In this document: positions 33,933 through 62,424 of the stretch, piece by piece
Layout: each line of letters starts with the position of its first letter
Position numbering within the stretch: position 1 is the stretch's first letter
From: Demequina sp. NBRC 110054
Lineage (GTDB): Bacteria > Actinomycetota > Actinomycetes > Actinomycetales > Demequinaceae
Assembly: GCF_002090115.1 (NCBI RefSeq)
Contig: NZ_BBRK01000005.1
Span: 62,001-126,000 of the forward strand
Length of the DNA stretch: 64,000 bases
Direction: 5' to 3'
Translations under genes and position numbers: made by a program
Notes under the pieces: model-generated
Database searches by the model: none
Seen by the model: only the letters and a program-made list of their open reading frames with translations
What the model was told of the DNA's origin: nothing

Positions 33933-35210
33933 ATGGCACGATGGAACACCATCGCGCGTGGCGCGGCCGTGGCGGCCGTCGCAACGCTGGCCCTTGCGGC
34001 CTGCTCGGTTGAGGGTGACGCGGACTCGAGCAGCTCGGCGGAGGGCAGCGACAGCGCTGCCTCGGGCGACGCTCTGAAGATCGGCACGCTGCTTCCGATC
34101 ACCGGCTCGCTGGCCTTCCTGGGCCCGCCCGAGATCGCCGGTGTCGACCTCGCGATCCAGGAGATCAACGAGGCCGGCGGCGTCAACGGTCAGGACGTCG
34201 AGGTCATCCACGCTGACTCGTCCGACACCGCCAACCCGCAGATCGCCTCGCAGTCGGTCTCGGACCTCATCGCTGAGAACGTCGGAGGCATCATCGGTGC
34301 CGCGTCGTCCTCCGTGTCGCTGAACGTCGTCGACGACATCGCCGCGGCTTCCGTGGTCCAGATCTCGCCCGCGAACACCTCGACCGCGCTGTCGGGCTAC
34401 TCGGACTTCTACTTCCGCGTGGCGCCGCCGGACACCGTCCAGGGCAACGCGCTCGCCAACGTCATCATGGACGACGGCATCGAGAGCCTCGGCATCCTGG
34501 TGTTCGAGGACGACTACGGCACGTCGCTGCGCGACGTCGTGGTCGACACCCTCGGTGACACCGTCGACGTGACCTACGGCGAGACCGAGACGTTCGACCC
34601 GACCGCGACGAACTTCTCCGCTGAGGCGCAGGCCGTCATGGCGACCGACCCCGAGGCGATCCTGATCATCGCCTTCGAGCAGACCGTCCAGGTCATCAAG
34701 GCGCTGCAGACCGCCGGCTGGGACGACTTCTCGATGACGTACTACACGGACGGAAACACCGCCGACTACTCGGAGGACCTCGACGCGGGTCTGCTCGAGG
34801 GCGCGAAGGGCACCATCCCCGGTGCGAACCCGACCGAGGAGTTCCAGGCGCTGCTGAACAGCGTTGCGGACGAGGAGCTCGACTCCTTCGCCTACGGCGC
34901 TGAGTCCTACGACTCGGCCATGCTGCTCGCGCTCGCCGCGGTCGCCGGTGGCGGCGTCGACGGTGCGACGATCCAGGCCAACATGGCTGCGGTCTCCGGT
35001 TCCACCGGTGGCACGGAGTGCTCCGGCTTCGCCGAGTGCGCCGAGCTGCTCGAGGCCGGCGAGTCGATCGCCTACACCGCGGTCTCCGGTTCGGGTGCGT
35101 TCAACGACGCCAACGACCCCTCGTCCGCCTACATCGGCGTGTACGAGTTCGATGGCTCGAACGTCCCGGTGTGGACCGAGGCCGTCTACGGTGAGGTTCC
35201 CGCCGCGTAA
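33933..35210 (+). CDS. livK: branched-chain amino acid ABC transporter substrate-binding lipoprotein
   Basis: 425 residues. The lipoprotein signal ends LALAAC with Cys24 lipidated, followed by a Ser/Asp/Ala linker. The type I periplasmic-binding fold begins KIGTLLPITGSLAFLGPPEIAGVDLAIQEINEAGGVNG and continues with SSSVSLNVVDDI, ISPANTSTALSGY, GILVFEDDYGTSL and FAYGAESYDSAMLLALA. These are typical of Leu/Ile/Val or amide-binding proteins; ligand choice cannot be read. It should serve the LivHMGF permease encoded on the opposite strand 0.8 kb downstream. GGAGGA precedes the ATG. A TTCG-loop terminator follows. Confidence 0.92.
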   Translation: MARWNTIARGAAVAAVATLALAACSVEGDADSSSSAEGSDSAASGDALKIGTLLPITGSLAFLGPPEIAGVDLAIQEINEAGGVNGQDVEVIHADSSDTANPQIASQSVSDLIAENVGGIIGAASSSVSLNVVDDIAAASVVQISPANTSTALSGYSDFYFRVAPPDTVQGNALANVIMDDGIESLGILVFEDDYGTSLRDVVVDTLGDTVDVTYGETETFDPTATNFSAEAQAVMATDPEAILIIAFEQTVQVIKALQTAGWDDFSMTYYTDGNTADYSEDLDAGLLEGAKGTIPGANPTEEFQALLNSVADEELDSFAYGAESYDSAMLLALAAVAGGGVDGATIQANMAAVSGSTGGTECSGFAECAELLEAGESIAYTAVSGSGAFNDANDPSSAYIGVYEFDGSNVPVWTEAVYGEVPAA

Positions 35211-35243: not shown

Positions 35244-35280
35244 GCGAAGGGCCCCTGGCTTCGGCCAGGGGCCCTTTCGC
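35244..35280 (+). terminator. terminator after livK
   Basis: Hairpin of 13 or more base pairs (AAGGGCCCCTGGC with GCCAGGGGCCCTT) closed by a TTCG tetraloop, with flanking GCG/CGC pairing around one bulged T. It belongs to the GAAGGGCC class. Confidence 0.85.
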
Positions 35281-35368: not shown

Positions 35369-35534
35369 CCGCATCGTCCACACCACGGATCCGCACCCAG
35401 CCGCCCCAGCATCGTTCCCGCCCAGACCCACCAGCAGCGTCCACAACGTCGCCCCCTCCGGCACCCACCCGCATCGTCCACACCACGACCCACCAGCAGC
35501 GTCCACAACGTCGCCCCCTCCGGCACCCACCCGC
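35369..35534. repeat. GC-rich tandem repeat tract between livK and livF
   Basis: A 48-bp sequence is present twice without change (35425-35472 and 35487-35534), period 62 bp. It starts GACCCACCAGCAGCGTCCAC. GCATCGTCC-type motifs recur at 35369, 35409 (with an extra T) and 35471. An open reading frame across it is proline/arginine-rich, has no ribosome site and is rejected. The same GCATCGTCC motif, inverted, makes up the tract at 62317-62424. Confidence 0.8.
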
Positions 35535-35793
35535 GCGCCGGTGGACACTCATTGTCGGTTTCCGCCGTCGCGGGCGTCCTAGTGGACGGATTCCTACCGG
35601 TCTCCTATGAGGGTCGCGACGCGAGGGGCGGCTACCAGACGCCGAACGGCGAAGGCGCGAGGCCGGATGGCCCGGCGCCGCATCTTCCCGGTACCGCATC
35701 GCCTGGGAACCGCTGGCAGCCCTGAGCGGTACAGGAATGTCCACCAGGGCACAGACGACGTCCAGAAACGACCTTGAGCGTCCACTAGGGCGC
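35533..35793. repeat. palindromic repeat element, copy 1 (41-bp units in inverted arms)
   Basis: A 14-bp core of the form GYGCCCYAGTGGAC occurs at 35533 and 35574 on the plus strand and, inverted, at 35739 and 35780. Spacing within each arm is exactly 41 bp. Outer units continue ACTCATTGTCGGTTTC-like, inner units GATTCCTACC-like. The arms (about 70 bp each) enclose about 150 bp with no recognisable gene. It lies in the 35211-36013 gap between convergent livK and livF. From 35794 to 35960 I see nothing recognisable. It could be a MITE-type remnant of an insertion sequence with repeated transposase sites, or a structured intergenic element. Confidence 0.75.
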
Positions 35794-35960: not shown

Positions 35961-35999
35961 AGAAGCGCCCCGCCACCTTGAGGGTGACGGGGCGCTTCT
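35961..35999 (-). terminator. terminator after livF (bidirectional shape)
   Basis: 17-bp stem (35961-35977 with 35983-35999, one mismatch) and a 5-nt loop, beginning AGAAGCGCCCC. It lies 14 bp beyond the livF stop on the minus strand. Confidence 0.8.
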
Positions 36000-36013: not shown

Positions 36014-36742
<729 letters not shown>

Positions 36743-62054: not shown

Positions 62055-62312
62055 GTGCCCCAGTGGACACTCACTGTCGTTTCACGCCGCTGATTGTGCC
62101 CCAGTGGGCATTTTTGTACTGCGCGGGGCGCATGGGCGATGTGCGGGGTGGTGTGCGGGCCACGCCGCGGTGGATGGCGACGGGAGGAGCCTTCTCAGTC
62201 GGGACGGTACAGAATCGTCGACTGGCGTACGACGAGCGCCCACAAACGACCATGAGCGTCCACTGGCGCGCAGTGCGGGGTCAGAACCCACAATGAGCGC
62301 CCACTGGCGCGC
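62055..62312. repeat. palindromic repeat element, copy 2 (41-bp units in inverted arms)
   Basis: The core GTGCCCCAGTGGAC and variants lie at 62055 and 62096 on the plus strand, and inverted cores (GTCCACTGGCGCGC type) at 62217, 62258 and 62299. All spacings within an arm are exactly 41 bp. The inner right unit CGGTACAGAATCGTCGAC matches the corresponding part of copy 1 (CGGTACAGGAATGTCCAC). This copy has one more unit on its right arm and a shorter centre (about 107 bp between inner cores). No protein gene is visible from 61937 to 62520. Confidence 0.75.
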
Positions 62313-62316
62313 GAGC

Positions 62317-62424
62317 GGGACGATGCGGGTGCCGGGACGATGCTGGGGCCGGGCGCGGACGATGCTTGGGTCCGGGACGATGCGGTGGGCCGGGACCGGG
62401 ACGATGCGGGTGCCGGGACGATGC
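62317..62424. repeat. GGGACGATGC tandem tract
   Basis: (G)GGACGATGC occurs six times, beginning at 62317, 62334, 62357, 62374, 62398 and 62415, with spacing alternating 17, 23, 17, 24 and 17 bp. Read on the minus strand it is GCATCGTCC, the motif of the tract beside copy 1 of the palindromic element. It lies between copy 2 and the pgl terminator. Confidence 0.8.

Follow-up and report, generated by a model that had tools for sequence, protein, structure and literature searches.

The palindromic element at positions 35533 to 35793 of the 64,000-nucleotide stretch of Demequina sp. NBRC 110054 analyzed here (the window) is probably one of the gene-less copies of a dispersed repeat family whose partner is an AbiEi-Vsr nuclease of about 310 aa encoded elsewhere in the genome. 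The AbiEi part of one nuclease molecule would bind each footprint of the element, a complex would assemble on footprints spaced at 41 bp together with the inverted arm opposite, and nicking or cutting at the arrays, followed by repair copying, may spread the arrays into intergenic spaces. AbiEi itself recognizes a pair of 23-bp inverted repeats, and the related Rv2827c binds four at once (PMC7319586). The simplest reading would place a single nuclease on every footprint and couple these molecules over the 41 bp and between the two arms; we infer binding, cutting, and copying by the nuclease from the sequences compared below.

Structure of the array and its copies in the host genome

The original prediction placed four cores at 35533 and 35574 on the forward strand and at 35739 and 35780 on the reverse strand, with a 41-bp step in both arms, and the sequence bears this out. 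The core at 35533 differs from the proposed core consensus at 2 positions. Each arm consists of an outer footprint, A, and an inner footprint, B (Table 1), and convergent genes (Peripla_BP_6 and ABC_tran) flank the array on both sides. Both strands of the window were scanned with a weight matrix trained on other loci, the window arms being excluded. The two arms score 65.2 and 74.6 bits; a second array alone comes close in the window (73.8 and 72.9 bits, with 40.8 bits for an extra unit), and the next listed place after these two arrays scores −13.8 bits. When spacings of 37 to 45 bp were tried on the four window arms, the B score was positive solely at 41. The plain 14-mer count is weaker evidence than the weight matrix, with 7 matches at up to 1 mismatch versus 1.67 expected, a number that 1 of 100 shuffles reached.

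Table 1. Coordinates and consensus of the arrays and of the genes around the first array. Positions are those of the window unless a contig is given.
Feature	Position or length	Strand	Remarks
Upstream gene, periplasmic binding protein	33933..35210	+	Pfam Peripla_BP_6
Terminator-like hairpin 3′ of upstream gene	35247..35277	+	Read from sequence
Left arm, outer footprint A (29 bp)	35533..35561	+	Weight matrix, alignment
Left arm, inner footprint B (27 bp)	35574..35600	+	41 bp from A
Spacer separating the two arms	35601..35725	.	No called gene
Right arm, inner footprint B	35726..35752	-	Inverted
Right arm, outer footprint A	35765..35793	-	Inverted
Terminator-like hairpin 3′ of opposing gene	35961..35999	-	Inverted repeat I1
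Opposing gene, ABC transporter ATPase	36014..36742	-	Pfam ABC_tran
Second array, left arm A	62055..62083	+	
Second array, left arm B	62096..62122	+	
Second array, right arm B	62204..62230	-	
Second array, right arm A	62243..62271	-	
Second array, extra third unit	62284..62312	-	GTGGGC type, 41 bp further out on right arm
Convergent loci	35533; 62055; C4:1414601; C4:1569327; C6:374031		The first is the window array; GNAT gene inside C4:1569327, nuclease gene inside C6:374031
Outer footprint A	29 bp		Consensus GCGCCCCAGTGGACRCTCATTGTCGTTTC
Linker A-B	12 bp		No clear conservation
Inner footprint B	27 bp		About GYGYCCCAGTGGACRNTTCTGTACCGC

The host genome (G000; 3.35 Mb in 6 contigs) contains at least 13 array loci, two of them inside the window, and the element thus has the further copies that the original prediction called for. 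The 41-bp period persists when these copies are aligned: the difference between outer and inner units and the 41-bp step are both kept in 25 of the 26 arms at the 13 loci, the remaining arm being a single B-type unit (C4:1866753 locus). Plain BLAST with the window element already recovered most of the 13 loci, and a model trained on 23 arms detects 25 arms with both footprints, plus one extra unit, at E below 2e-8, the two arms outside the training set being those at C6:364091-364239. Five loci have the convergent layout (A B ... B′ A′). Gene-less convergent arrays have gaps of 81-125 bp and coexist with gene-bearing ones, the position of the window spacer being held by a nuclease gene or a GNAT gene in two other convergent host arrays. 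The divergent layout (B′ A′, 14-15 bp, A B) is found at 8 of the 13 loci, with the two innermost cores starting 28-29 bp apart. In one divergent array (L013 3253-3349), one side is a single B-type unit, a pattern that deletion of A by one 41-bp step would give.

Footprints and linkers were compared in 12 arrays, the array without one A being left out. A footprints agree at 23.7 of 29 positions between arrays (~82%) and linkers at 4.7 of 12 (~40%). Because the linkers are constant in length and random in sequence beside conserved footprints, constant spacing and footprint conservation point to selection on each site, probably for protein binding. Random linkers next to conserved footprints are not what a recent wave of copying would produce. 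Nor is there a visible sign that whole arrays were copied recently, since the A footprints in the two arms of one array agree at 23.3 of 29 positions, no closer than between arrays (permutation p 0.87). Of 47 genomes of the family, only 2 contain a 23-base A pattern when up to 1 mismatch is allowed: the host, with 12 sites, and its sister species G021, with 1. G021 also has arrays composed of the GTGGGC-type unit, and G000 and G021 share a place where a GNAT gene lies between arms (L010 3328-4059 and L074 680-1370, respectively); in the G000 copy, the two A footprints are identical and the linkers agree at 11 of 12 positions.

The AbiEi-Vsr nuclease and its bracketing repeats

The nuclease gene of the host (G000:C6:374142-375080) sits between two inverted A-B arms of the window-array type, and its orthologues in G021 and G027 are likewise inside arms of the same kind. 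The original prediction of a site array for a DNA-binding protein therefore looks right in part, the same arms elsewhere in the genome bracketing a nuclease gene. The host protein, of up to 321 aa, consists of an AbiEi-like part (PADLOC AbiEi, E 1e-9) fused to a PD-(D/E)XK part of the Vsr/MTES_1575 type. Among 24 orthologues, Pfam AbiEi_4 is matched in 5 and AbiEi_1 in 2, while PF18741 is matched in all 24 and PF04480 in 23 (E up to 0.1), the host protein itself falling under the curated Pfam cut-offs of both nuclease families. E205, H225, D237, D240, E248, D250, H255, D264, and D268 are invariant, and we infer a catalytic role for these acidic and histidine residues. MTES_1575 has been named as a novel Vsr-REase (PMC3710099). 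One structure model of the D. silvatica orthologue has a mean pLDDT of 69 and a pTM of 0.43, residues 74-133 being unreliable, and a sequence search of the PDB returned two abortive-infection proteins, 6y8q and 9hlo, at E 0.34.

Matches to the nuclease protein occur in 46 of 47 family genomes, 2 to 7 in each. Wider samples, which include the host's own relatives, gave matches in 5 of 149 genomes at phylum level and in 42 of 297 at order level. At the 30 best hits whose loci were examined, clpX adjoins the nuclease gene in 27 and the same tRNA ligase in 23. Between G027 and G000, the nuclease gene shares 65% DNA identity, versus 82-88% for its flanks. At a second host paralogue (C4:808620-809471), the arms are its own, again with a 41-bp step, and there is one dispersed relative, at C4:1103451.

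Bracketing repeats were sought around 70 nuclease genes, namely the best hit of each of 30 genomes and 40 further genes of 13 genomes; these 40 were picked by genome, and for seven of the 13 genomes they include the best hit. The threshold for bracketing was that an inverted repeat matching at 20/24 or more spanned the gene, with 400 bp taken per side. Such a repeat brackets 47 of the 70 genes (20 of the 30 best hits and 27 of the 40 others), and 23 fall under the threshold. The same score is reached by 250 of 3,000 cross-locus control pairs, some of them from related loci, and 1 of 36 control genes (other genes, all of the host window) is bracketed. Among spacings from 25 to 80, direct repeats of at least 18/24 favor 41, seen on 31 of 140 flank sides, and then 42, seen on 9, with at most 6 sides for any of the rest; the 72 sides of control genes have one case each of 41 and 42. 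The bracketing motifs are many and diverse, with close species pairs having a common motif. No target-site duplication of at least 5 bp was found at 49 bracketed nuclease genes (mean length 1.33, versus 1.24 in cross pairs). One paralogue (L152) has a palindrome on each side. Outside the family, with one locus at a contig end (L225) left out, repeats pass at 3 of 9 usable loci (L210, L222, and L223); three of the other six are partial matches, which makes the comparison a weak one. At L210 (1051-2543), a related gene has four copies of one unit on its left and three inverted copies on its right, 67-74 bp apart.

Motifs, gain, and persistence of gene-less arrays

Gene-less arrays tend to carry the motif of a nuclease gene of their own genome. 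Positions 21-25 of the A site read TGTCG or GGTCG in all 24 G000 sites and in 17 of 21 G021 sites, and TGACG in 10 of 11 G027 sites. The difference holds at an orthologous array (L017 in G000, L081 in G027); the signature thus goes no further than setting G027 apart from the G000-G021 pair. We also compared 24 dispersed arrays of 8 genomes, leaving out L091 and L102, which lie at nuclease genes, with 85 nuclease-gene flanks. For 10 of the 24, a flank from the own genome is the best match, where the number of own-genome genes leads one to expect about 1, and for 13 it is in the top three, ties included; this test is biased in that the search for the relatives' arrays used a model trained on G000. 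The own-genome flank comes first in none of 6 G041 arrays and not in the 1 G016 array, the flanks compared being those of part of the paralogues. These arrays (L084-L089 and L106) are possible orphans.

Some arrays persist between species. Six of the 7 G021 array loci compared are at G000 array places (L010, L011, L012, L014, L015, and L017), the nuclease locus included, as are 2 of 6 G027 array loci (L015 and L017). L017 and its G021 counterpart have flanks that are 92% identical and arrays of different types. The 13 G000 loci lie between convergent genes in 10 cases, codirectional genes in 3, and divergent genes in none, with gene calls made by codon-position GC and four loci settled by eye; 4 of 41 neighbor pairs in the window are convergent. 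This context and the shared places could also be explained by a domesticated nuclease whose arrays are working sites that serve the host, for example where convergent transcription meets, and are kept by selection and not by copying. The conserved footprints and the randomized linkers of constant length would suit such a role as well. We nevertheless consider it unlikely, as an array would also land most safely in a gap between convergent genes, and copies come and go at some loci. At the place of the G000 array L016, no site of this type is found in any of the 6 relatives read (best, 8.1 bits); in 5 of them there is little beyond a terminator between the genes, and G021 has another inverted repeat (by eye). 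None of the 29 orthologous stretches read for the window locus has a site of this type (best, 8.6 bits), in a scan that motifs of other species could escape. The locus carries other repeats in G009, G019, and G024 (by eye), and CCTGCATGCAGG-type palindromes are found in the gap before the ABC ATPase gene in G024 and G019 (L185 and L188).

A further nuclease paralogue lies at the window locus in G021. Vsr-like homing enzymes exist, and an element of that kind, in which the nuclease cuts a gene-less array and its own gene is copied in by repair, would account for this paralogue and for the coexistence of gene-less and gene-bearing convergent arrays in G000. It is very unlikely all the same, given that the best hit stays next to clpX in nearly all of the loci examined and that most host arrays are of the divergent layout, with merely 14-15 bp between the innermost cores.

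Comparison with known systems

The proposed system of nuclease and dispersed arrays resembles the AbiE type IV toxin-antitoxin system in the AbiEi-like part of its protein, and AbiEi binds inverted repeats (PMC7319586). In AbiE, antitoxins repress through inverted 23-bp repeats (PMC7319586), and the arms might by analogy be operators of the nuclease gene, with the dispersed arrays as its regulon. We regard such autoregulation as very improbable: the arms are on both sides of the gene, sites lie elsewhere too, and no G000 array is between divergent genes. AbiE also differs in that the nuclease part is fused here and that the neighbors of the G000 nuclease gene encode a class I tRNA ligase and ClpX, not AbiEii.

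The IS21 family has multiple sites in its inverted ends. The original prediction of a MITE-like remnant stands as to dispersed gene-less copies, but its IS21 part is unsupported and, despite the likeness of repeated sites within inverted ends, can practically be dismissed: the host genome has no full-length IstB match (PF01695 gives three partial matches, two of them above the cut-off and covering 101 and 30 of 238 positions), the two stretches around rve matches contain no A site (best, −7.0 and −8.1 bits), target-site duplications are missing at the bracketed nuclease genes, and the A-B arms bracket a different enzyme. A structured RNA, also put forward originally, finds no backing in Rfam (no match at the gathering threshold) or in the arm alignment, where covariation is next to none and 1 of 10 predicted pairs has a two-sided change. 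A plasmid or phage origin was rejected, with two plasmid matches at E 0.5 and no phage match.

The closest parallel to the nuclease and its arrays that we considered is the REPtron, a fast-evolving RAYT (TnpA-REP) gene flanked by inverted REPs with which it co-evolves and of which there are dispersed copies (PMC2817692, PMC3116915, PMC8266576). Like REPtrons and REPINs, the family described here places a nuclease gene between inverted repeats that are also dispersed, and it has gene-less intergenic copies, species-specific repeats, and a gene that evolves faster than its neighbors. The enzyme, however, is an AbiEi-Vsr PD-(D/E)XK protein, whereas that of REPtrons is of the Y1/HUH type. The sites are two separate footprints of 27-29 bp placed 41 bp apart, in contrast to a GTAG-tagged hairpin of 20-50 nt, and the arm consensus is without a GTAG tag. 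There are at least 13 loci, compared with hundreds. The Y1 transposase (PF01797) was rejected as the agent, with matches in 0 of 5 genomes (G000, G021, G027, G023, and G024) and a positive control in 5 of 14. By this comparison, the array system appears to work like a REPtron, and REPtron membership fails because no Y1 transposase was found in the 5 genomes. TIRtrons, tyrosine transposase genes with long TIRs on either side, are similar in that the inverted repeats around the gene can make up a dispersed family as well, and differ in their enzyme, again a tyrosine transposase (PMC3733652).

That the window array is one of at least 13 dispersed copies of a repeat which also surrounds a nuclease gene suggests a previously undescribed dispersed-repeat system tied to a DNA-cutting enzyme unrelated to known repeat transposases. 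In the open-access literature, as surveyed by titles, starts of abstracts, and word counts, we recognized no link of DUF559, MTES_1575, or Demequina to bracketing or dispersed repeats. The broader proposal, that actinobacterial AbiEi-Vsr nucleases run their own REPtron-like system, in which a sequence-specific nuclease rather than a transposase writes and maintains its double-stranded site arrays throughout the chromosome and enzyme and site specificity shift jointly between species, seems to us evenly balanced between right and wrong. If true, it would provide a DNA target and a role for uncharacterized nucleases of the DUF559/MTES_1575 type with AbiEi-like parts and would mean that the REPtron way of life arose a second time and independently, on a PD-(D/E)XK nuclease. 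Paralogues with different motifs would form a natural series of protein-site pairs in which to follow specificity change across dozens of sites, and the AbiEi-Vsr case may point to agents of repeat families that have no known transposase.

The window also contains repeats of another type. GGACGATGC was tried as a repeat of nuclease paralogues and not established as one, the 9-mer being within 500 bp of 8 of 85 nuclease genes; judged by eye, the arms of the G021 L145 gene seem to be different ones. GGGACGATGC occurs 10 times in the window, versus 0.6 expected. The GCATCGTCC (GGACGATGC) repeat has 24 copies scattered over the window, for example at 35371-35479 and 62317-62424, and is also present between genes in several other Demequina genomes.
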